Shown here piece by piece: positions 2 to 60,209 of a stretch of 64,000 nt of DNA; the first letter of the stretch is position 1, and every line of letters starts with the position of its first letter. Made by a program: the position numbers and the translations under genes. The notes beneath the pieces are model-generated. The model had not been told where the DNA came from, searched no databases, and saw only the letters and a program-made list of their open reading frames with translations. Source of the stretch: Oscillospiraceae bacterium (GTDB lineage Bacteria; Bacillota; Clostridia; Oscillospirales; SIG627); NCBI GenBank assembly GCA_015063985.1, contig SVTC01000004.1, positions 1 through 64,000 on the forward strand, written 5' to 3'.

Positions 2-430
2 CACACCGCCGTTGATACTTGCGGCTTTGTGCCGCGGACTGCTCTTGACAAGGTCATTCCTTACACCGACGTGTTTCTTTATGATATAAAAGCCTACGAT
101 GAGGATGTACATATCAAATGTACGGGGGTATCGAACAGGCAGATACTTGAAAATCTTAAATATTTAGACTCACTTGGTAAAGCTATCGAGATACGAATTC
201 CTTACGTTCCCGATTATAATGACAGTCAAATCGAGAAGATCGCTCTTTTACTTGCGCCACTTCAAAATCTCACAAAAATCCGTGTTCTTCCTTATCACAA
301 TTATGCAGGCTCTAAATATGAGGCTTTGAATATTCCAAACACTCTGCCGAATAGATTGCCGACAAACGAAGAAATACAAAGAGCCGCAGAAAAGATAAAA
401 GTTATCACACATTTTGTTGCCCCTTCTTGA
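2..430 (+). CDS. glycyl radical enzyme activase, C-terminal part
   Basis: This is the C-terminal half of a radical-SAM glycyl radical enzyme activase; the N-terminus with the CxxxCxxC cluster lies off the left edge. The visible part opens with [10 protein letters not shown] and continues [11 protein letters not shown], matching [10 protein letters not shown] and [11 protein letters not shown] of the complete activase at 6989-7801, so the two are clearly related. Such enzymes use SAM and a 4Fe-4S cluster to put a radical on the glycine of a partner enzyme, which is presumably just outside the window. A GTG at 29 is only an internal codon, since the frame is open to position 2. The last five codons (FVAPS) are written by the conserved arm that precedes the spoIVB fragment, so the natural C-terminus was probably altered when the junction formed. 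Confidence 0.85.
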
Positions 431-3864: not shown

Positions 3865-4611
3865 CCACCTGCTCGGCGAGACACCGCAGATCTGCTTGAA
3901 CACCTTGCTGAAATAATAAACGTCGGAAAATCCGCAAAGCTCAGCTATCTCGGAGACGGTCAAACTTTGAGTATCCAGCATTGATTTCGCGTTTTCTATC
4001 CTACGCTGAATAAGATATTTGTTGGGTGTTGTTCCGAAATTGCCCTTAAAAAGCTCGCCGAATCGTCTTGATGAAAGACCGCATTGTCTTACAGCAGAGT
4101 CGATGCAATCGGCATCCTTGAAATTGGCGTCGATATAGTCCTTTGCGGAGTGTATCCGCATATCCTTGGGAAAATATGCTCGCTGTCTTGCCTCGGCAAA
4201 GGTATCGCAGAGCTTATAGATGGTTGAGAGCAGTGAAAGTTCACCGCTTCCCGAAACGAGGTTCAATTGCTCGGCTTTTTGCAATAGGGCAATTATCTCG
4301 TCGGGATTATCTATGGGGAGACAGAAGCTGTCGGTCTCAATATCCTCGTAGGTGGTGAAATGCACCGAAAAGGCATCACCCGCTTCGAAGACCTCCACGT
4401 CGTAGTCGTCCTTTTGGTTGAAAAAATATATACAATTTCTGGATAATACAAAGCTTTGGTTTTTAAAGCTATGAAGTGCCGAGCCACTGAGAGTTATACC
4501 TAAAAAGTGATTTTTGCGTTTTTCTGCCCTCCATCTTTTAATATTAGGAGTGTAATGAAGTATAGAATGTATATCTTTTATCCGAATATTCTCAAAAACC
4601 AAAACCACCAT
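3859..4611 (-). CDS. AraC-family regulator, divergent from GRE 1
   Basis: A 250-aa regulator. The N-terminal about 140 residues are a cupin-like sensor (GSALHSFKNQSFVLSRNCIY). The C-terminal about 100 residues hold the two AraC helix-turn-helices (CGLSSRRFGELFKGNFG and VSEIAELCGFSDVYYFSKVF), ending in the usual SPSRWK. It is divergent from the glycyl radical enzyme at 4753, and the 141-bp gap holds back-to-back promoters, so it is the likely local activator. The start is uncertain: ATG 4611 lies directly against GGAG, whereas a TTG four codons in would have better spacing. The sensor ligand, presumably the GRE substrate, is unknown. Confidence 0.88.
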   Translation of the reverse strand: MVVLVFENIRIKDIHSILHYTPNIKRWRAEKRKNHFLGITLSGSALHSFKNQSFVLSRNCIYFFNQKDDYDVEVFEAGDAFSVHFTTYEDIETDSFCLPIDNPDEIIALLQKAEQLNLVSGSGELSLLSTIYKLCDTFAEARQRAYFPKDMRIHSAKDYIDANFKDADCIDSAVRQCGLSSRRFGELFKGNFGTTPNKYLIQRRIENAKSMLDTQSLTVSEIAELCGFSDVYYFSKVFKQICGVSPSRWK

Positions 4612-4629
4612 CTCCGTTTCTTTAGCTTT

Positions 4630-4725
4630 ATTTTACCACACTGTCACCGATTTGTAAATATTAATTTCCGTATTTTACAAATTTCTTTAATTTGCATTGT
4701 AAAGCGCCGATGGGTTTGGTATAGT
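4630..4725. promoter_or_regulatory. divergent promoters AraC / GRE 1 with palindrome
   Basis: On the minus strand TTTACA (4653-4658) and TAAAAT (4630-4635) are spaced 17 bp. On the plus strand TTGTAA (4697-4702) and TATAGT (4720-4725) are spaced 17 bp. Between them lies an imperfect palindrome, TTTGTAAATA (4651-4660) facing TATTTTACAAA (4671-4681), which overlaps the AraC-gene -35 box. It is a plausible operator. Confidence 0.55.
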
Positions 4726-4752
4726 AAACAAAAATGGAAGGAGCTGATTTTT

Positions 4753-6996
4753 ATGTTTGATGAATTGAGACGAGAATTGTATGATTTTTATCTCCACGGT
4801 GACGCGGAGAGAGCAAAGGCATTTGCCGACAAATGCTATGCCATAATGGACGAAAGATTTGTCGATGGCATGAGCGTAACAGAGCAAAAACTGCTTCAAT
4901 ACGACGTGATTACTGAGTGTTTTGAGCCGAAAATATTCCGTAACACCCCATTCTTTTATGAAACGGGAGTTCTGACCTCACTGTCCGACGGAGCAAGGCA
5001 TGCCAAGGGGCATTCCTTTGTGCAAGCAAACGGTTGGGTCTATAATCGAAACAAACATCTGTTCATCGACCAAGACAAGGCGCTTTACGAAAGAAAAAAG
5101 GCGCATTCTCGCGAAATGCTCTATCTTATCTGCGGACCTTATAACGATACCTCCCAGCATTTCAATTTCAATTGCCGTCCGTTTTTAAAGATCGGTGCCG
5201 GTGGCATCTATGAAAAGGCCAAAAGGAAGCTTAGTCACACTAAAAATGAAGGAGAAAGGGAATTTTTAGAAGCTGTCTGCCACGGTATGTTATCCTTGAA
5301 GCACATGGCTGAAAAATTCGCAAAAAAGGCTGATCTCATGCTTGAGTCCGAGAACGATCCCGAATGCAGAAAAAATCTTGCGCTGATTGCAGACACAGCC
5401 AAACGCATTCCTTGGGAGGCACCCAAAACCTTTTATGAGGCATTGGCAACCCTTTCTTTTTTACGAACCGCAATGGGCTCTCTTGAAGGCGTGGGTCCCA
5501 ACACCTTCGGTCGGCTTGACAAGGATCTGATCTCTTTTTACAAATCGGATATTGAGAAAGATATTCTGACAAAAGAGCAGGCGTATGCGCTGATCTGTCA
5601 ATTCCTTTTGATCTGGGATTGCCATTACGACCATGATATGCCAATGGAGGGCTATGCCGATCACGAATTGGAAAACACCTACACCTTAGGTGGCTGTGAT
5701 GACAATGGCGCACCGCTATACAATGAGCTGACCGAGCTGTTCCTGCAAGCAACCAATGAACATAAGATCATATTCCCCAAGATTAAATGCCGCTTTTCCA
5801 AGGACTCTCCCAAGGAGTACCTTGACATCATCAATAAATCAATCATCGACGGAATCACCACCGTTCTTCTGCAAAATGATGACGCGACCATTCCCGCGCT
5901 TCTTCGCGCAGGCAGACCGCTCCGGGAAGCGCGTGACTATATGGTATCGGGATGTTGGGATATTGTGACAAATCAGGAAAAATCCGACCACGGAAGCTAT
6001 CTGAATTTGTTAAAGCCCTTTGAGTTTTCTCTGCACAATTTACAGGACAAAATGGATGCGGTGGGCATTCGCTTCGAGTGCTTTGATGAATGCAAAAGCT
6101 TTGAGGAGCTTTACGGTAAGACACTTCACAATTGCGAGCTTTTACTTGACGCTAAGCTTGAGGTGCAGACAAAGGGCGGTCAGATATTTCACAAGGTGGA
6201 CCGATTCCCGATCTTTTCATCCACCCTTGAGGGATGTCTCGAAAACCGTGCTGATTTTACGGTAGGCGGTGCAAAATATCATGATGACTATCAGCTTTTA
6301 TTCGGATTTCCCAATATAGTCGATTCGCTTATGGCAATAAAGACTCTTGTTTTCGACAGGAAGAGGTATTCGCTTGCCGAATATCTCCATGCCGTGCGGT
6401 CAAACTGGGAGGGATACGAAAAGATGAGGCTTGAGGCTTTGCACTGTCACGGTTGGGGCGACGGAAACGAGGACTCCTGCGCCCTCGCAAATCGGTTCAA
6501 TAACGATCTTTACGAGATCTTCTCTCGCAAGACGGGAATGTACGGTGGTAAGGTTCATATGGGACACTTGACCTACACCGAGATCCGCTGGTGGGGAGAA
6601 AAAACACTCGCTACTCCCGACGGACGCAGATCCGGGGATTACTTTTCCCAAGGACTGACACCTTCCCGTCTCAAGAAGATCCCCTGTGTCAACGACGTCA
6701 TCAACAGCCTGGCAGCACTGGATCCTTCTACCATGGCTGCAAATTCGGTGGTCAACATCATTCTTCCGAGCAAGATCCCGCTTGAGGGTTGCGAGGGCTT
6801 TCTCCGCGCGGCGGCAGACTCGGCGATCCAATCGCTTCAACTGAATTGCACTTCAAAAAAGGAACTGCTTGACGCTCAAAAGCATCCCGAAAAATACCAA
6901 AACCTCATCATTCGTGTGACGGGGTTTTCAGCTAAATTCACAAGCCTTTCGAAGGGATGGCAGGACGAGGTCATATCGAGGAATTTTTATGAGTAA
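4753..6996 (+). CDS. glycyl radical enzyme 1 (PFL-like family)
   Basis: A 747-aa member of the pyruvate formate-lyase/glycyl radical superfamily. The thiyl cysteine is C401 in MVSGCWDI, and the glycyl radical loop is RVTGFSAKF with G724, followed by the usual WQDEVI segment. Substrate type is not clear: CutC, glycerol dehydratase and related eliminases usually read GCVE or GCIE at the cysteine, and PFL has two adjacent cysteines, while here a tryptophan and aspartate follow. At 747 residues it is shorter than CutC and most eliminases. ATG 4753 is chosen over upstream codons because AAGGAG precedes it and the promoter lies at 4697-4725. Its activase overlaps by 8 bp, so the pair is coupled. 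An AraC gene is divergent. It probably performs a dehydration or C-C/C-S cleavage on a small polyol or sugar acid, which is inference. Confidence 0.9.
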   Translation: MFDELRRELYDFYLHGDAERAKAFADKCYAIMDERFVDGMSVTEQKLLQYDVITECFEPKIFRNTPFFYETGVLTSLSDGARHAKGHSFVQANGWVYNRNKHLFIDQDKALYERKKAHSREMLYLICGPYNDTSQHFNFNCRPFLKIGAGGIYEKAKRKLSHTKNEGEREFLEAVCHGMLSLKHMAEKFAKKADLMLESENDPECRKNLALIADTAKRIPWEAPKTFYEALATLSFLRTAMGSLEGVGPNTFGRLDKDLISFYKSDIEKDILTKEQAYALICQFLLIWDCHYDHDMPMEGYADHELENTYTLGGCDDNGAPLYNELTELFLQATNEHKIIFPKIKCRFSKDSPKEYLDIINKSIIDGITTVLLQNDDATIPALLRAGRPLREARDYMVSGCWDIVTNQEKSDHGSYLNLLKPFEFSLHNLQDKMDAVGIRFECFDECKSFEELYGKTLHNCELLLDAKLEVQTKGGQIFHKVDRFPIFSSTLEGCLENRADFTVGGAKYHDDYQLLFGFPNIVDSLMAIKTLVFDRKRYSLAEYLHAVRSNWEGYEKMRLEALHCHGWGDGNEDSCALANRFNNDLYEIFSRKTGMYGGKVHMGHLTYTEIRWWGEKTLATPDGRRSGDYFSQGLTPSRLKKIPCVNDVINSLAALDPSTMAANSVVNIILPSKIPLEGCEGFLRAAADSAIQSLQLNCTSKKELLDAQKHPEKYQNLIIRVTGFSAKFTSLSKGWQDEVISRNFYE

Positions 6997-7801
6997 GATT
7001 GTGGCAAATATATTTGATATACAAAGAAGCTCCTTCGTGGACGGTCCGGGGATACGAACTACCGTATTTTTCAAGGGCTGTAATCTACGGTGCAGATGGT
7101 GTCACAACCCGGAAAGTCAGAATTTTGAAAAGGAGATACTTTTTTTCAAAAACAAATGTACAGGCTGTGGAAAATGTAAAGGACTCACAACTGAGGATAG
7201 CAATTTTATATGCTTTAATGATGCAAAGGAGATCTGCGGAAAGGAATATACTGTCGCCGAGGTGTTAAGCGTAGTACTGAAGGATAAGAGGTTCTACGAG
7301 TCCTCGGGCGGGGGCGTAACATTCTCGGGCGGCGAATGTATGCTTCAAATCGATTTTCTTGAAGAGATACTTAAGGAATGTAAAAAGAACGGCATACATA
7401 CCGCCGTGGACACGGCAGGACACGTGGTGTTTGAGTATTTTGAAAGGATAATTCCCTACACCGATCTGTTTCTCTATGATATCAAATGCCTCAATAATGA
7501 AAAGCACAAGCAATATACGGGTGTTCCAAACGAGTTGATTCTCTCAAACCTCAAAAGACTTTTTAAATCGGGAAAAGCAATATGGATACGAATACCGATT
7601 ATTCCCGAGGTTAATGACAATGAATCGGAGTTGCTGGCAATCAAAACAGTACTTTCCTCATATGGATCCCCCGAAAGAGTGGAGTTGCTTCCTTACCACG
7701 CTATGGGTGAGCATAAATATTTAGCTATCGGCAAGGAAGCACACATATTTTCTGTTCCGAGTGAGGAAAAAATGACGCAGCTAAAAAAACTTTTTTTATG
7801 A
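6989..7801 (+). CDS. glycyl radical enzyme activase (radical SAM)
   Basis: A 270-aa activase for the overlapping GRE 1. The radical-SAM cluster ligands are C31, C35 and C38 in [14 protein letters not shown] short cysteine-rich insert (C57, C60 and C63 in CTGCGKC, plus later cysteines) replaces the two-cluster ferredoxin domain of typical eliminase activases. [16 protein letters not shown] is the SAM-binding GGE segment. The ATG lies within the last codons of GRE 1 and overlaps its stop by 8 bp. It is closely similar in plan to the activase cut by the left window edge, which also ends at a spoIVB junction. Five bases after the stop the conserved TGTTG arm of junction 3 starts. Confidence 0.93.
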
Positions 7802-27714: not shown

Positions 27715-28407
27715 TCAGAGCTTCTCTTTTACTATACAGGGAAGTGTTCCTTTTTCCTTTTTAAGCTTCAAAACAAAATCAAAGCGATCAATGTCCGTGC
27801 AAAGGAAAAAGTCGTCTTTTGGGAATACGTCCTTTTGAGTATCGTCAAAAAATTTTGCCCCCGATGTGAATTTCAGCTTTTCGGCTTCGGATTTTATATC
27901 TAACCCGGTGTTTTCGATAAGACTTTTAATATATTCGGCACAAAGGGTGTCTTCCTCGGTGGGGCGAAGAGCTTCCAATCCCATACAGACAAGGGATACG
28001 TTTTTTGCACCGCTTTCTTTTATATATTTGGCTGTTGCTTTTGCATTGACAAGAGAGCCGCCGAGAATTTCGCTTGCGTTTATAGCGTTAGAAATACCTT
28101 GAGTTCCCGCGCTGGTAGTGTGTACAACCGTTTTTCCTTTTGGATCAAGGGAGGAGATCTGAGAAGGGGAGTTTCCTATATCAAACCCCGGAAGGATTTT
28201 TCCGTGGCGCTCGCCTGCCAAAATAAAAGCCGGATTTTCTTTTTTCAGCTTGTATGCAAGCTCCACGTCAGCTACGGGGATTATTTTTTCGGCTCCCTTT
28301 GCCAAGAGATATGCTTCCAAGGAATAGGCTCGAAAAACGTCAATGATAACGGTCAAGCCTTGCGCTTTTCGTGCGCCTTCAATAAGTTGCAGGATTTTTA
28401 TATTCAT
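27715..28407 (-). CDS. comB: ComB-family 2-phosphosulfolactate phosphatase
   Basis: A 230-aa ComB-family protein. Family segments visible are TVIIDVFRAYS, LAGERHG with PGFDIGNSP, VVHTTSAGTQG, and PTEEDTLCAEYIKSL. ComB releases phosphate from 2-phosphosulfolactate in coenzyme M synthesis; bacterial members probably act in sulfonate or other phospho-hydroxyacid metabolism. It follows a sugar isomerase/epimerase gene by 5 bp, and the pair is divergent from GRE 2. This is compatible with a sulfonate or sugar-acid pathway, but the sequence does not prove it. Confidence 0.82.
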   Translation of the reverse strand: MNIKILQLIEGARKAQGLTVIIDVFRAYSLEAYLLAKGAEKIIPVADVELAYKLKKENPAFILAGERHGKILPGFDIGNSPSQISSLDPKGKTVVHTTSAGTQGISNAINASEILGGSLVNAKATAKYIKESGAKNVSLVCMGLEALRPTEEDTLCAEYIKSLIENTGLDIKSEAEKLKFTSGAKFFDDTQKDVFPKDDFFLCTDIDRFDFVLKLKKEKGTLPCIVKEKL

Positions 28408-28412
28408 TTTTC

Positions 28413-29249
28413 TTATTTTATCAGTGATTCAAGGTAAACCAAGGAATCATAGTTGTGCTTTGCAAATGAACGAAGGAGATGGTCATCATCATACCAACAA
28501 TGGGTTTCGAGAGTTAACGGACCCTTGTAAGCTATTCTTTCCAGTGCGGGCATGATTCTGTCCCAGGCAATATTTCCGTAAACCGGAGGAGCATGGTCAT
28601 CTCTGTTTCCCCAATTGTTGTGAACGTGGGTGCAGTCCAAAAGGCTTCCCATTGCTTCCAGGCAAGGTACTTGGTCTGCTTTTATCAGGTTGGCATGGCC
28701 GAAGTCCCAGCAAATTCCCAAACTATCGTACTTAAAGAAATCACAAAGCCAAATAAGATGCTCGGGATTTGATGAAAACAGAGGGCTTACAGCTTTTGAT
28801 CCGGGAAAAATCGGCATATTTTCCACCGCGATTTTTGTGTTGTGTTTTTTGGCACATTCGACAAGAGGGCTAAGCCAGCTTTTGTTGTCTTCCAAAGATC
28901 TTGAAAGCAAAAAGCTTGAAGTAAAGGAGGTTCTGGGGTGGATCACGCAATACTTTGCACCGATATATCCGCTTGAAATTATAGATTGGCGTATGAAAAA
29001 TTCCAAATCTTCATCAATCTTTTCCGATGAATCAAAGGGATTGTAATAGTGAGGGTGAGATTGAATACAGCCAAGATTGTTTTCGGAAAGTATTCTTAAA
29101 ATATCATCATTTATCTTTTTCCAAGCATCCTCGGTTTTTTCTGTGATCTCTGTGTAGTTCACGGATATGTTGGAGAAACCGACTTCGGAGGCGTATCGGC
29201 ATTTTTTCTCAAAATCCTTGTTATAGGCTATCTGAATTGCTTTTAACAT
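28413..29249 (-). CDS. sugar phosphate isomerase/epimerase (AP_endonuc_2 fold)
   Basis: A 278-aa TIM-barrel protein of the xylose isomerase-like family. Metal-ligand segments are visible: CVIHPR, KIAVENMP (Glu), CWDFGHANL (Asp and His), CTHVHNN (His), and LTLETH (Glu) near the C-terminus. Such enzymes isomerise or epimerise sugars, sugar phosphates or inosose-like compounds. It is the first gene of a two-gene unit with the ComB homologue and is divergent from GRE 2 (137 bp apart), so it may process the same substrate. GGAGAAG precedes the start. Confidence 0.85.
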   Translation of the reverse strand: MLKAIQIAYNKDFEKKCRYASEVGFSNISVNYTEITEKTEDAWKKINDDILRILSENNLGCIQSHPHYYNPFDSSEKIDEDLEFFIRQSIISSGYIGAKYCVIHPRTSFTSSFLLSRSLEDNKSWLSPLVECAKKHNTKIAVENMPIFPGSKAVSPLFSSNPEHLIWLCDFFKYDSLGICWDFGHANLIKADQVPCLEAMGSLLDCTHVHNNWGNRDDHAPPVYGNIAWDRIMPALERIAYKGPLTLETHCWYDDDHLLRSFAKHNYDSLVYLESLIK

Positions 29250-29336: not shown

Positions 29337-29364
29337 TTTACAATTTTTTATATTATGCTATAAT
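29337..29364 (+). promoter_or_regulatory. promoter of GRE 2
   Basis: TTTACA (29337-29342) and TATAAT (29359-29364) are spaced 16 bp, ending 22 bp before the GRE 2 start codon. AAGAGG serves as the ribosome binding site. Confidence 0.6.
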
Positions 29365-29386
29365 AATACCGAAAAGAGGTGTCCTT

Positions 29387-31510
29387 ATGTCGAAGTCTCT
29401 TAAAGAATGTAAAGACGTATTGAAAGAAGCTTTAAAGAATGCCGATTATAAAAACGGACTTTCTGTGGAAGTATTAAAAGAAGAAATAGCAAAAATAACG
29501 CAAAGATATATAGACCTATCCGTTAGCCTTACAAAATCAAAGCTGATGGAGTTTATTTTTTTGAATGCCGCCGTTGCAGTGCATCCGGAGGATCTTTTTG
29601 CCACGGAACTGTGTCACGGAGGTCTTATGAGTAAGTTTCTCGGGCAAAGAGAAAAGTCAAAAGCTTGTCTTGAGATAGCCGAAGCTTCAAAGAAATATGA
29701 AAGGACAAACACCATCAGGGCAAGTATGGATTTCGGACATATTGCTCCCGATTGGCAATACGTTTTGGATAAAGGTATTGTCGGAATAATAGAAGACCTT
29801 TCGACCGAAAAGGAAAAGTATCTGCCCGACACCGCAAAGTTTTGCTATTGTAGCGAAAGAATCGCGGTTTTTGAAGCTATGAAGGCTTTGATGCTTAGAT
29901 TTTCCGAAATTGCAAAGGAAAACAACAGCGAAAAATCCGATTTCGTATATCAAAACCTTGTTGCTCTGGCCAACGAGCCTCCAAGGACAATGGCTCAGGC
30001 TATGCAGCTTGTTTTGCTCTTTTACGTTTTGCAGACAAACATTGATACCGTTATCTGCCGATCCCTCGGCGGGCTTGACAGAATGCTTTATCCCTTTTAC
30101 AAAAACGATCTTGAAAGCGGTAGCTTTACCAAGGAGCAGCTTGCCGAGATCACCGATCACTTCCTTTGGAAGATCTCCTGCATGGAGGTTACGGCAAATA
30201 TGCCCTTTTATATCAGCGGCAAGGATGAAAGGGGAGAGGATGCCACCAACGAATTTACCTATTTTATTCTGGAGCGTTACCGCGCCCTTGATATTTACGA
30301 TCCCAAGATCCACGTGATGTATCACGACGGAATAGATAAAAGGCTTGTAAGGCTGGTCCTTGAGATGATAAGAGAGGGAAAGAACAGCTTTGTGTTTATG
30401 AATACCAAGGCCGCCTCTCTTGCCCTTGAAAGTATCGGAGTTGAGCCCGAGGATGCAAAAAGGGTGATAGTATACGGCTGCTACGAGCCTGCCGCCGAGG
30501 CTACCGAGATCCCTTGCACCTGCGCGGGAAAGATAAATCTTGCAAAATCGGTGGAGCTTGCAATAAAGAATGCCGATAGCTTTGAAAGCTTTGACGAGTT
30601 TTACGGCGAGGTGCTTTCCCAATTGGAGAGCTACACGGTTTTGTGTATGGACACCATTGCCTCTTATGAAGAGCACTATGCGGATATCTGTCCGTCCATG
30701 CTTATGTCTCCAACCTACCGCCACAGCAGAGAAAGAGCACTGGACGTTTACAGCGGCGGAGCAAAGTACAACAACACCTCGATAGTAGGCTCGGGGCTTG
30801 CCACTTTGGTAGACAGCTTGATCGCGGTCAAAAAGTTGGTATTTGAAGAAAAGCATAAAAGCTTCGGGGAACTGAAAAGCATCCTTCTGGCGAATTGGGA
30901 AAATGAAGAAAAGCTGCGGCTTATGATAAAGGCAAAATACCCCAAGTTCGGAAACTGTCAGCCCGAGGCAGACGGTATAGCGTCGGATGTCTATAATCGC
31001 TTTGCGGATATTATCAACAATCGCCCCAACGGCAGAGGGGGAGTGTTCAGATGCGGAATGTTTTCCGTGGATTGGCGCTTCTGGATGGGAGCAAAAATGG
31101 GCGCCACCCCCGACGGAAGGCTTGCAGGGGAGGCCATATCCAAAAACCTTGCCGCCGCTATAGGTCAGGACAAAAGGGGAGTTACCGCTTATCTGAATTC
31201 CCTTACAAGGCTTGATCCCGTTAAGGTACCCGACGGATACGTGGCGGACGTTTGCCTGCACGTCTCCGCGGTAAAGGGCGAGGACGGTATGGCGGCATTC
31301 GAGGGCTTGCTTTTGACCTTTATGAAAAAGGGCGGCTTCTCGGTGCATTTTAACATTCTCAGCCCCGATACCCTGGTAAATGCTCAAAGGGAGCCGGAAA
31401 AATACAAAAACCTGCAGATACGTCTTTGCGGTTGGAACGTGAGATTCGTAGAGCTTGATAAGGCTCAGCAGGATGAATTTATACTTCAATCAACAAATAG
31501 TTTAGTGTGA
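29387..31510 (+). CDS. glycyl radical enzyme 2 (unusual glycyl loop)
   Basis: A 707-aa glycyl radical superfamily protein. The cysteine is C365 in VYGCYEPAAEA. The C-terminal loop is RLCGWNVRF with G682, where RV(S/T)GY/F is usual, followed by QQDEFI. The cysteine one residue before the glycine is uncommon. ATG 29387 is chosen because the promoter is just upstream. Unlike GRE 1 and GRE 3, no activase gene follows; the next gene is a DUF4832-like protein 1 bp away. It may use the activase at 6989 or 59439, or another one. Upstream, the divergent ComB homologue and isomerase hint at a linked substrate. The reaction is unknown. Confidence 0.85.
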   Translation: MSKSLKECKDVLKEALKNADYKNGLSVEVLKEEIAKITQRYIDLSVSLTKSKLMEFIFLNAAVAVHPEDLFATELCHGGLMSKFLGQREKSKACLEIAEASKKYERTNTIRASMDFGHIAPDWQYVLDKGIVGIIEDLSTEKEKYLPDTAKFCYCSERIAVFEAMKALMLRFSEIAKENNSEKSDFVYQNLVALANEPPRTMAQAMQLVLLFYVLQTNIDTVICRSLGGLDRMLYPFYKNDLESGSFTKEQLAEITDHFLWKISCMEVTANMPFYISGKDERGEDATNEFTYFILERYRALDIYDPKIHVMYHDGIDKRLVRLVLEMIREGKNSFVFMNTKAASLALESIGVEPEDAKRVIVYGCYEPAAEATEIPCTCAGKINLAKSVELAIKNADSFESFDEFYGEVLSQLESYTVLCMDTIASYEEHYADICPSMLMSPTYRHSRERALDVYSGGAKYNNTSIVGSGLATLVDSLIAVKKLVFEEKHKSFGELKSILLANWENEEKLRLMIKAKYPKFGNCQPEADGIASDVYNRFADIINNRPNGRGGVFRCGMFSVDWRFWMGAKMGATPDGRLAGEAISKNLAAAIGQDKRGVTAYLNSLTRLDPVKVPDGYVADVCLHVSAVKGEDGMAAFEGLLLTFMKKGGFSVHFNILSPDTLVNAQREPEKYKNLQIRLCGWNVRFVELDKAQQDEFILQSTNSLV

Positions 31511-31511
31511 T

Positions 31512-32831
31512 ATGAAAAAAACCTACTCATACCGAAAAGAAAAAAAGCAAAACCCCTTTGTGGGTCTTACCTCGTTTCAACATTTCAATAACGGCGAGCT
31601 GTATTCAGATCTTGTGGTCCTGCCGGAAAACAACCTGACCGAAACAGAGCACGTGGAGTGTTATCCCATTCCCGATTACGTCAGCCAAAAGGGTAGAGCT
31701 CAGGGCTATTATCCCGATTGCTCGGTGGCGTATTTCAGAGTACTCTGGAAGGAATTTGAGCCAGAGGAAGAAAAGTACAACTATTCCCTTATAGAGGATT
31801 TATTGAAAAAAGCAAGAGAAAGCTCTCAAAGCCTTATGCTTCGCATTATGCCACACAGCACCCGAGAGAGCGATGACGTTCCTCAATGGCTGAAGTATAG
31901 GATACCCTGTCCCTCTCGCCCTGCGGGAAAGAGGGTAAAGGATTCACCGAGGGATAAAATGTTTCTATTTTACTTCGGCAGGGCGATACGCGCCCTCGGA
32001 GAGGCCTTTGACGGCGATGAGACCCTCTCTATGCTTGACGTCTCTCTTCCCGGAGCCTGGGGGGAGGGTTGTGATATAGCTTATTTTGAAAAGGATGAGC
32101 TTTTGGATTTTGCCGCTATATATACCGACGTATTTAAAAATACCCTTCTTATCGGACAGATAGGTGCTCCGTGGCTTGTAAAGGCATTGGGGAAGTCGGG
32201 ATCGGTGGGATGGCGTGCGGATTGCATCGGACCGGATCATACCTATAAAATGATGCTTCCTCTTACCGAGGAGCTTTGTGAGGTGTGGAAAAGCGGACAC
32301 GTGTCCTTCGAATCCTATTGGTGGCTGGGAGAGTGGGAAAGAAAGGGCTGGGACGTGGACGCGCTTTTAAAAAGGATGCTTGATTGGCACGTCAGCACCT
32401 TTAATGCAAAATCCTTGCCCATACCCAATCGGTGGAGAGAGAAGATAGATGATTTTGTGTCGAAAATGGGCTATCACTTTGTGATAAAGGAAGCATCCGT
32501 GCAGGACAGTGTCAGTGCGGGCTCAAGCCTTAAGCTTTCCCTGACCGTTGAAAACCGAGGCGTTGCGCCGATATACCGTAAGCTGCCCTTATATATAAAA
32601 ATAAAGGGTGAGTCCGAGGCTCTTATTAAAACCGAGGTTGATATCACAAGGTGGCTTCCCGGTGAGCATGAGGAAGGTATTGAGCTGCAGATCCCCGTTG
32701 ATATGGCGGCGGGCAGCTACAGTATCCTGGCGGGTATAGGCGCAGGTGCTTTGCCAAGGGTGTATTTTGCCACTGATGCAAGGCAGGATGAAAACTTTGC
32801 AGAGCTTTTTAAAATAAGTGTGACGGAATAA
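31512..32831 (+). CDS. TIM-barrel protein with DUF4832-like C-terminus
   Basis: A 439-aa protein starting 1 bp after the GRE 2 stop. The N-terminal part looks like a GH42-like catalytic barrel (YFRVLWKEFEPEEEKYNYSL is the usual Trp-Glu strand; MLDVSLPGAWGEGCD holds a candidate acid). The C-terminal about 110 residues (LSLTVENRGVAPIYRKLPLY) match the immunoglobulin-like DUF4832 domain of putative glycosidases. No signal peptide is present. Coupling to a glycyl radical enzyme is odd and suggests that the GRE processes the aglycone or sugar released by this protein. Confidence 0.65.
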   Translation: MKKTYSYRKEKKQNPFVGLTSFQHFNNGELYSDLVVLPENNLTETEHVECYPIPDYVSQKGRAQGYYPDCSVAYFRVLWKEFEPEEEKYNYSLIEDLLKKARESSQSLMLRIMPHSTRESDDVPQWLKYRIPCPSRPAGKRVKDSPRDKMFLFYFGRAIRALGEAFDGDETLSMLDVSLPGAWGEGCDIAYFEKDELLDFAAIYTDVFKNTLLIGQIGAPWLVKALGKSGSVGWRADCIGPDHTYKMMLPLTEELCEVWKSGHVSFESYWWLGEWERKGWDVDALLKRMLDWHVSTFNAKSLPIPNRWREKIDDFVSKMGYHFVIKEASVQDSVSAGSSLKLSLTVENRGVAPIYRKLPLYIKIKGESEALIKTEVDITRWLPGEHEEGIELQIPVDMAAGSYSILAGIGAGALPRVYFATDARQDENFAELFKISVTE

Positions 32832-32837
32832 AAAGGA

Positions 32838-32872
32838 GGCAGTATCTTTTGATACTGCCCATTCTTTTTTTA
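32838..32872. terminator. intrinsic terminator, GRE 2 operon
   Basis: GGCAGTATC pairs with GATACTGCC around four T residues and is followed by CATTCTTTTTTTA. It also separates this unit from the convergent aldolase gene. Confidence 0.9.
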
Positions 32873-57286: not shown

Positions 57287-57330
57287 TTAATCAAAGAATT
57301 TTATTGATTTTAGGAGGTTGCGAGCTTCTT

Positions 57331-59436
57331 ATGGAATTGTTTAAAGCTTTGAATAATGAAATATGTGAAGAAACCTCGGGAACTTATGCTCCCTATTATT
57401 TCAGATGCTTGGGATATAGGCGTGATTTTGCGGCAAAGCCTTCGGTCTTGCGCGCTAACGGTATCTACGCTCTGTTTACCGAAACCGAGCCCGTGATCTT
57501 AAAAAGCGAGCTTATTGCGGGAAATAAAAAATCTCTTTATACCGATGCACCCCATGAGATCCTTGAATACTCGGAAAAGACCGTGAAAAAATTCGGTGAA
57601 AGAAGCTTTATAACCAATAAGGATCACTATGCTCCCAATTACAGTCATATATTAAGCGTTGGCATTCCCGGGCTTATCGGCGAGATCGAAGCTTCAATGG
57701 AAGTCCACAAGGACGACAGCGAAAAGCTCGATACCCTTCTTTCAATGAAGCACAGTATTTTGGGCTTCAAGCTGATGATCGAAAACTATAAAAATGCGGC
57801 ATTAAGCTCTAAAAATGACCCGTCTTATACCGCTGAGCGCTTGGAGCTTATCATAAATAATTGCGAAGCCATCACAAAAGGAAAGCCCCAAAGCTTTTCT
57901 CAGGCTCTTCAGCTTATATGGTTCTGCCACTTGGCCTTTCTTATGGAGGGAAGATACGCTATGGCGCTGGGAAGGCTGGATCAGTATCTTTATCCCTTCT
58001 ATAAAAACGATATCGAAAAAGGGCTGATCACCGATAAAGAGGTTACAGAGCTTCTTGAAAACGTGTTTATCAAGCTTCAAGGTGACGTTGTAAACATTTG
58101 TATAGGCGGTCAAAACAAAAACGGCGAATGTGAGGTCAATCCTTTGAGCCTTTGCATTTTGAAGGCTGTCGGAAACTGCAACGTTCCGGGCCCCAATCTT
58201 TCCCTGAGACTTACCAAAAACACCCCCGATGAATTTTTGGATGAATGCCTGAAGACCATCGGCACCGGTCTTGGATATCCCGCTCTTATGAATGACGACG
58301 TGAACCTTGCCGCTCTGAAGAGATACGGCTATGAGGACGAAGACCTTTACGACTACTGTATGGTAGGATGCATTGAAAACTTCATAACGGGTAAGCAGCC
58401 GCCGTGGTCCGACGGTCGCTTCGACACTCCGAGATATTTTGACTATATTTTCAATAACGGGGTCAGTAAAACCAATAAAAGCTGCGGTATAGATATGGGC
58501 GACGTTGAAAAGCTGGGATCGATGGCTGATTTTATGAGCGCCTTTGAAGAACAGCTTAAATTCGGGGTTGCCGAATACGTTGCCAGATTCAACGCATCAA
58601 ACTGCGCCATCAACCAAAAATTTTTCCCCGAGCCCTTCTTATCCTGCTTCTGCGACGATTGTATCGGCAGAGGCTTGGATATAAATAACGGCGGAAGTAA
58701 ATATCCCTCCGTTCACGGTGCCGCTATAATGGGAATAGGCACCACCGCAGACTCTCTTGCGGCTATTGAAAAGGTCATCTTTAACGATAAGGCGGCTACC
58801 CTTACTCAGCTTAAGGATGCTCTCAATGCCAACTTCGAAGGCTTCGAGGAGCTTCGTGAAAGGCTTCTGGAGGCACCGAAATACGGAAATAACGATGAGT
58901 TTGTAGATAAATATGCCGTTTGGTTTATAGATTACCTTGCAGGGCTTTTCGATAAGTATAAGACCCGTGACGGCGGCGGTATATACGTTGCCGCGGCGGC
59001 AAACGTCAGCAATATCTATGCGGGAAGGATCATAAACGCCACTCCCGACGGAAGAAAACGCGGCGAGCCCTTAAGCGATGCCGCCAGCCCTACCTACGGA
59101 AGGGACGTAAAGGGCCCGACATCCACCGTGAACAGTGTTACTAAGCCCGACTACACAAAGGTAGCCTGCGGAAGCGTTGTTAACCAAAAATTCTCTCCCG
59201 CAATGTTTTCCGATAATAACAGACCCAAGCTTCTTGGTCTTATCCGTACTTATTTCAAAAAGGGCGGTCAGGAGATGCAGATAAACGCCACCTCCAGAGA
59301 GATTTTGAAAAAAGCCATGGAGGAGCCGCAGAATTACAGAAATCTTGTGGTTCGCGTTTCGGGCTTTTCCGCCTTCTACGTCACCCTGGAAAGGGAAGTT
59401 CAGCTTGACATTCTTAACCGCACTCAGCAGGAATAA
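57331..59436 (+). CDS. glycyl radical enzyme 3
   Basis: A 701-aa glycyl radical superfamily protein. The cysteine is C347 in CMVGCIENF, close to the eliminase-type GCIE, and the glycyl radical loop is RVSGFSAFYV with G678. The Cys-Ile-Glu triad suggests a dehydratase/eliminase-like reaction rather than pyruvate cleavage. It is shorter than CutC, glycerol dehydratase or HypD proteins. ATG 57331 follows TAGGAGG by 13 bp, somewhat long. Its activase begins 3 bp after its stop, followed by a transporter and alcohol dehydrogenase. A pathway producing an aldehyde reduced by the dehydrogenase is plausible but unproven. Confidence 0.9.
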   Translation: MELFKALNNEICEETSGTYAPYYFRCLGYRRDFAAKPSVLRANGIYALFTETEPVILKSELIAGNKKSLYTDAPHEILEYSEKTVKKFGERSFITNKDHYAPNYSHILSVGIPGLIGEIEASMEVHKDDSEKLDTLLSMKHSILGFKLMIENYKNAALSSKNDPSYTAERLELIINNCEAITKGKPQSFSQALQLIWFCHLAFLMEGRYAMALGRLDQYLYPFYKNDIEKGLITDKEVTELLENVFIKLQGDVVNICIGGQNKNGECEVNPLSLCILKAVGNCNVPGPNLSLRLTKNTPDEFLDECLKTIGTGLGYPALMNDDVNLAALKRYGYEDEDLYDYCMVGCIENFITGKQPPWSDGRFDTPRYFDYIFNNGVSKTNKSCGIDMGDVEKLGSMADFMSAFEEQLKFGVAEYVARFNASNCAINQKFFPEPFLSCFCDDCIGRGLDINNGGSKYPSVHGAAIMGIGTTADSLAAIEKVIFNDKAATLTQLKDALNANFEGFEELRERLLEAPKYGNNDEFVDKYAVWFIDYLAGLFDKYKTRDGGGIYVAAAANVSNIYAGRIINATPDGRKRGEPLSDAASPTYGRDVKGPTSTVNSVTKPDYTKVACGSVVNQKFSPAMFSDNNRPKLLGLIRTYFKKGGQEMQINATSREILKKAMEEPQNYRNLVVRVSGFSAFYVTLEREVQLDILNRTQQE

Positions 59437-59438
59437 AA

Positions 59439-60209
59439 ATGATACTTAATATATCAAATATCCAGCATTTTTCAACGGGAGACGGAGCGGGAATAAGAAC
59501 AACGGTTTTCTTCAAGGGCTGTAATCTTCGCTGTCCGTGGTGTCATAATCCGGAAAATCTGTCTGCCGCTCCTTCGGTTTTGCACTATAAGAATCTCGAT
59601 AAGACCGAGATAATGGGAAAAAGGGTGACCGTGGATGAAATATTGCCGGAGCTTTTGGAGGATAAGGACTTTTTTGACCAAAGCTCGGGCGGAGTAACCT
59701 TATCGGGCGGCGAGGTAATGCTCCAAGCGGATTCCGCCGCAGAGCTGGCAATAGCTTTGAGGTCTTGCGGTGTCGGGGTTCTTATCGACACGGCCGGCTG
59801 TGTGCCGTACTCTGAATTTGAAAAGCTAAACGCAGTTGTTCAAGGCTATCTTTTCGATTTCAAGACCGCCGATGCAAAAAAATATAAAGAGATAGGCGGA
59901 GATCTGGAGCTTGTCAGCGAAAACATAAAAAAGCTAAAAAACGAAAAGCTTGAGCTCCATATAAGAATTCCGCTTATACCCGGCTTTAATACCGATCTTG
60001 GCTCGCTGGAGGCTATCTGCCGTCACCTTGAAAAAACAGGCATAAAAGAGGTTGAGCTTTTGCCCTTCCATCGCCTGGGAAGCGGTAAGTACGAGGCAAT
60101 GGTGTTGGAATATAAGTATGCCAAGCTTCCTCCCATGAAGGCCGACGAGCTGGAAAGAATTGCGCAGCTATTCGGGACTAAGGGCTTTTCGGTCAAGAAG
60201 GAGGGGTGA
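59439..60209 (+). CDS. glycyl radical enzyme activase without ferredoxin insert
   Basis: A 256-aa radical-SAM activase for GRE 3. The cluster cysteines are C28, C32 and C35 in GCNLRCPWCHNPE; SSGGVTLSGGEVMLQ is the SAM-binding segment. The segment after the radical-SAM motif lacks the cysteine-rich insert found in the 6989 activase, so it is a compact PFL-activase-like form. It overlaps the transporter gene slightly or lies 2 bp before it, depending on the start chosen there. Confidence 0.92.
   Translation: MILNISNIQHFSTGDGAGIRTTVFFKGCNLRCPWCHNPENLSAAPSVLHYKNLDKTEIMGKRVTVDEILPELLEDKDFFDQSSGGVTLSGGEVMLQADSAAELAIALRSCGVGVLIDTAGCVPYSEFEKLNAVVQGYLFDFKTADAKKYKEIGGDLELVSENIKKLKNEKLELHIRIPLIPGFNTDLGSLEAICRHLEKTGIKEVELLPFHRLGSGKYEAMVLEYKYAKLPPMKADELERIAQLFGTKGFSVKKEG

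Follow-up and report, generated by a model that had tools for sequence, protein, structure and literature searches.

A CGW-clade glycyl radical enzyme encoded without an adjoining activase in an Oscillospiraceae bacterium

Introduction

Glycyl radical enzymes (GREs) are usually annotated by the activase encoded beside them, and a GCxE motif marks the GREs of the eliminase type. Here we analyze a GRE, termed GRE2, encoded in a 64,000-nucleotide stretch of an Oscillospiraceae genome (contig SVTC01000004.1 of assembly GCA_015063985.1, hereafter the window). A Foldseek search with the GRE2 model (pLDDT 76.7) recovered PflD, glycerol dehydratase, propanediol dehydratase and HypD as the nearest structures, with TM scores of about 0.8 and 22-24% identity.

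The best PDB matches of GRE2, by both sequence and fold, are the PflD/YbiW enzymes of E. coli and Streptococcus (8id0, 8yjo): these share with it the GRE fold, the thiyl cysteine, the GCxE motif and a link to sugar metabolism (PMC12441222). PflD and YbiW act on anhydrohexitol phosphates, as anhydrohexitol-6-phosphate lyases (PMC12441222). GRE2 differs from them in showing 23% identity in the structural alignment, in being about 70 residues shorter, in having GCYE and CGWN in place of the usual residues, and in possessing a cysteine (Cys379) where 2f3o has the aspartate of ..SSDAA... The B12-independent glycerol and propanediol dehydratases (1r8w, 5i2g) likewise share the fold, with the Cys, Glu, His118 and Asp231 columns conserved; however, at 22-24% identity, GRE2 reaches 321 bits on TIGR01774 against a cut-off of 678 and falls far below the cut-offs of the dehydratase equivalogs. 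The class III ribonucleotide reductase NrdD resembles GRE2 in having a cysteine directly before the radical glycine (RRVCGY in E. coli), but differs in its separate activator NrdG and its domain set, with no overall domain match. That a single activase can serve two glycyl-radical proteins is known from PflA, which activates PflB and GrcA/YfiD (PMC8683613, PMC12338860); YfiD, however, is a spare-part subunit rather than an independent enzyme, whereas in the present case it is complete GREs that are uncoupled from the activase. Finally, the aminoacyl radical enzymes (AAREs) combine a GRE fold with unusual radical loops (PMC11528403), as GRE2 does, but replace the glycine itself; an AARE-type radical was rejected for GRE2, since the glycine is kept in all 41 members of its clade.

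None of the named GRE equivalogs (PFL, CutC, HypD, HpfG/HpsG, HPAD and IAD) places GRE2 above its NCBIfam cut-off: the best score is 256 bits against 1000, and the PFL model TIGR01255 gives 85 bits against 994. Literature searches, the coverage of which leaves out most subscription papers, returned no description of the clade reported below or of genomes with a comparable excess of GREs. We treat this clade as an uncharacterized clostridial GRE subfamily.

The GRE2 gene and its transcription unit

The following features make up the locus:

28413..29249, - strand: divergent gene for a xylose-isomerase-like TIM-barrel protein (AP_endonuc_2; Pfam)
29337..29364, + strand: putative sigma-70-type promoter, TTTACA-16-TATAAT with a TGn (extended) element before the second hexamer, 11 of 12 matches
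29374..29381, + strand: predicted ribosome-binding site of GRE2, AAGAGGTG, 5' of the ATG at 29387 (read from the sequence)
29387..31510, + strand: GRE2, glycyl radical enzyme of 707 aa, CGW clade, no activase adjoining (Pfam, fold, alignment)
30476..30487, + strand: active-site motif G364-C365-Y366-E367, with thiyl Cys and dehydratase-type Glu (G, C and E in 41 of 41 clade members, Y in 40 of 41)
31415..31438, + strand: glycyl radical loop QIRLCGWN, KNLQIRLCGWNVRF (alignment of 41 homologues)
31512..32831, + strand: TIM-barrel-like protein with a C-terminal DUF4832 domain, starting 1 bp after the GRE2 stop (Pfam)
32838..32859, + strand: predicted intrinsic terminator, 9-pair stem followed by a T run, at the end of the GRE2-DUF4832 unit

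The GRE2 frame, read directly from the sequence, opens with the ATG at 29387 and closes with the stop at 31508-31510. It matches PF02901 (PFL-like; 297 bits, 3.3e-88) and PF01228 (Gly_radical; 59.8 bits, 4.3e-16), which together span nearly its whole length, giving it both the barrel and the Gly_radical domain of the superfamily. These matches, the reading frames and a search of the window bore out what an earlier note on this DNA had described: a GRE with an RLCGW loop and no adjoining activase, followed 1 bp later by a DUF4832-like gene. The promoter, a consensus match, is the best such site of the region; together with the ribosome-binding site and the terminator it suggests that GRE2 is expressed, and that GRE2 and the DUF4832 gene form one promoter-to-terminator unit. 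Against a 56%-identical homologue, GRE2 has diverged by 0.36, 0.29 and 0.60 at codon positions 1, 2 and 3 respectively; third positions are thus about twice as divergent as second positions, which indicates purifying selection.

Xylose-isomerase-like genes like the divergent one upstream of GRE2 also adjoin two other GRE-activase pairs of the clade (L074, L082). Directly downstream of the divergent gene lies an ORF (27715-28407, - strand) that by eye is a candidate ComB-type 2-phosphosulfolactate phosphatase.

The CGW clade and its radical loop

A first scan of contigs yielded only remote GREs, 23-28% identical overall. Whole genomes belonging to the same family, order and class were then searched for homologues, which gave a clade of 41 members including GRE2. 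A wider draw of 294 genomes across the phylum added no member beyond the window's own genome; as sampled, the clade hence looks confined to this class.

The clade is defined by two motifs, Q[VI]R[VL]CGWN and GCYE. In the radical loop, the glutamine, the arginine (Arg679 of GRE2), the radical glycine (Gly682, codon 31430-31432) and the following tryptophan (Trp683) are present in all 41 members, while the cysteine (Cys681, codon 31427-31429) is present in 40, with a serine in the remaining one, and the asparagine in 40. At mid-protein the thiyl cysteine, Cys365, and the glutamate two residues after it, Glu367, are both invariant (41/41); the latter yields the GCxE signature of dehydratase and eliminase GREs. 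The adjacent Cys-Cys pair of the PFL type is absent, GRE2 having a single cysteine in its GCYE.

The earlier note had called the loop unlike the usual RVSG or RVTG. A cysteine does precede the glycine, but the contrast was overstated: the published GRE fingerprint, RVXG[FWY], leaves X free (PMC11528403). GRE2 conforms to it in the glycine and aromatic residue, as do all clade members, and has a leucine at the V position, where 23 of 41 have valine. Across 26 GREs of the related genome G313, the radical glycine is preceded by A, S, T, G, C, W or H. The occurrence of the cysteine in 40 of 41 members makes it a hallmark of the clade rather than a local defect, and the idea of a degraded motif was rejected. 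Two GREs of G313 have unusual loops: RIHGTF (L171), which lacks an aromatic residue after the glycine and adjoins an activase, and KISGYS (L184), which lacks the usual arginine.

The earlier note had also raised the prospect that GRE2 has lost radical chemistry. It would then work, if at all, as a non-radical protein or be a decaying paralogue. The lack of an adjoining activase, a state common to its closest relatives, would fit such a loss. However, none of the radical and catalytic residues varies within the clade, the divergence is biased to third positions, and the promoter, ribosome-binding site and terminator appear intact. NrdD, too, has Cys-Gly in its loop. The loss of radical chemistry is therefore highly improbable, and GRE2 is most likely an ordinary intact GRE with a loop typical of its subfamily and an activase supplied in trans.

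Separation of clade members from their activases

When neighborhoods were called from all ORFs, a same-strand radical-SAM activase was present no more than 2.3 kb away from 28 of the 41 clade GREs, mostly 0-18 bp downstream. A further 12 are without one even though over 6 kb of sequence follows each of them, and the remaining GRE lies at the end of its contig. GRE2 groups with the GREs of G257, G106 and G313 in a subclade (SH-aLRT 99, from a quick tree), all four members of which depart from the typical, though not obligatory, encoding of GREs near an activase. In the case of GRE2, no activase is found in about 8-12 kb on either side, the nearest in the window being those at 6989-7801 and 59439-60209 and the truncated one at 2-430.

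In G435 and G463 (L052, L053), a solo-type GRE, a second clade GRE of another subclade and one activase follow one another in a single operon, spaced by 4-18 bp, such that two GREs naturally share an operon with one activase. The solo GRE of G257 has a clade GRE paired with an activase at a distance of about 5 kb.

In activase trees, those adjoining CGW GREs form one group, separate from the activases adjoining RIGGYS, RVTGFS, RIWGWS and RVSGFS GREs. A profile built from 24 CGW activases was run on 80 genomes, 29 with a clade GRE and 51 controls. It gave at least 390 bits in 25 of the 29, and two more (G009, G001) have known adjoining members with split frames, raising the count to 27; none of the 51 controls was positive, the best scoring 342 bits and none reaching 345. 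These co-occurrence figures are partly circular, as many of the genomes surveyed had also supplied loci for training the profile, though certain hits are independent of the training set (e.g. G585:C14, G313:C65, G257:C100). G405, G313 and G585 each have a CGW-type activase that is free-standing, with no GRE in the fetched flanks of about 1.5-9 kb a side. The proposal of the earlier note that GRE2 borrows an activase is thus supported: most homologues with the same loop adjoin an activase of their own, and CGW-type activases also occur by themselves. The exceptions are G106 (best score 303 bits) and G036 (374 bits), both 98% complete and with a solo GRE, in which no activase exceeds the CGW score gap; hence, a GRE of this clade can apparently manage with another activase.

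Candidate activases in the genome

The window encodes three GREs (at 4507, 29387 and 57304) and the genome nine, alongside seven activases over the family cut-off and the fragment at 2-430. The activases of the window are:

2..430, + strand: CGW-type activase, C-terminal 142 aa, cut by the contig start, candidate trans partner (groups with the C25 activase, SH-aLRT 89)
6989..7801, + strand: activase of the GRE at 4507-6996, of another activase clade and an unlikely GRE2 partner (tree; 295.6 bits on the CGW profile against at least 390 for members)
59439..60209, + strand: activase of the GRE at 57304-59436, of another activase clade and an unlikely GRE2 partner (Pfam, tree)

The earlier note had put forward the activases at 6989 and 59439 for charging GRE2. 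Both were rejected as its best partners: each has its own GRE beside it and falls outside the CGW group. Within that group are the fragment at 2-430 and a second activase of the genome, C25:22345-23229. The missing half of the fragment, and any GRE partner of it, lie off the contig. The C25 activase is 764 bp from a clade paralogue with RVSGWN and GCNE motifs; this may reflect a different recognition loop, which counts against C25 as the partner of GRE2. Another solo GRE of the genome (L086, C10:53407-55221) has RVSGWN and GCWE and no activase within about 8 kb.

Alternatively, GRE2 could be charged in trans by a non-CGW 'hub' activase serving several solo GREs in these GRE-rich genomes. One candidate is the orphan activase at C42:45594-46493 (L117), which is full-length, contains Cys clusters of the ferredoxin type and has no GRE for about 7-8 kb around it. 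Activases of this conserved type have no GRE within the fetched flanks; they are found in all four genomes of the GRE2 subclade (G000, the present genome, and G257, G106 and G313), yet across the order in only 13 of 394. Moreover, the only activases of G106 over the family cut-off are one of the C42 type and one paired with a RIWGWS GRE. On the other hand, the co-occurrence with the subclade is confounded by GRE-rich genomes, and the C42 type groups with activases adjoining RIGGYS GREs (L102, L104, L114), such that the solo RIGGYS GRE on contig C27 of the same genome could be its partner. We therefore regard this alternative as unlikely. The most economical pairing would match C25, or the truncated gene, with GRE2, and C42 with the C27 GRE. 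As the genome is 90.7% complete, a dedicated GRE2 activase could also be missing from the assembly.

The neighboring DUF4832 gene

The DUF4832 match covers residues 282-406 of the downstream protein, with a weak resemblance to a GH35-type TIM barrel in residues 76-128. The 1-bp spacing and the single promoter-terminator unit, as well as melibiase, GH10 and GH106-like genes beside GREs in other genomes, would accord with a dedicated pair, in which the second protein would be, for example, a glycosidase that frees the substrate of the GRE or a factor that binds the GRE. Among 394 genomes of the order, 15 encode homologues of this protein, 31-51% identical. Yet none of the 17 homologues in other genomes lies within about 1.5 kb of a GRE, even where the genome has a clade GRE as well (G257, G313 and G165), and none of the other 40 clade GREs has a DUF4832 gene nearby. 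As far as sampled, the pairing is specific to this genome. A conserved partnership was accordingly rejected; the coupling suggested in the earlier note is not conserved, and a dedicated pair is unlikely.

Proposed mechanism

The combined evidence favors, with a probability of about 0.7, an intact CGW-clade GRE that is activated in trans by a CGW-type activase, carries out a polyol-type elimination and has a locally acquired DUF4832 neighbor. Hydrogen abstraction from Gly682 would fall to a radical-SAM activase of the CGW type at another site in the genome, probably C25:22345-23229 or the gene whose C-terminal half is at 2-430. The resulting glycyl radical would oxidize Cys365 to a thiyl radical that starts the elimination, most likely the dehydration of a sugar-derived polyol, in which Glu367 would act as the acid/base. 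Cys681 would be a tolerated small loop residue, as in the class III ribonucleotide reductase, rather than a second catalytic center, and the DUF4832 protein a locally acquired, co-transcribed, glycosidase-like neighbor.

Genes near clade members include those for melibiase, GH10, GH106-like, sugar-binding, GFO/IDH/MocA, xylose-isomerase-like and AraC proteins, though their annotation reveals no conserved partner other than the activase and AraC regulators, and none that points to a substrate. Our best guess for the reaction is a dehydratase-type elimination on a sugar-like polyol or sugar-derived compound.

GRE surplus and implications

Certain related genomes (G313, G257, G165 and G107) have 16-28 GRE matches each against about 7-10 activases over the family cut-off, with G313 and G257 at 26-28 GREs against about eight. 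The majority of the GREs in G313 lack an activase in the surrounding 1 kb or so, but the radical glycine loop is retained in most. Tentatively, this may point to a modular system in these clostridia, in which a few free-standing, subfamily-specific activases charge many dispersed solo GREs. In that case, the CGW clade would represent a new class of sugar-processing eliminases, with the CGWN loop as the tag by which a shared CGW-type activase recognizes them.

The locus marks an uncharacterized clostridial GRE subfamily, associated with carbohydrates, whose host genomes have as many as 26-28 GREs. In this subfamily, GRE and activase genes have become separated while matching types stay together in genomes, and the matched pairs form a concrete set for testing what an activase recognizes. 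Its interest lies in this separation, and in the fact that GREs outnumber activases in related genomes.
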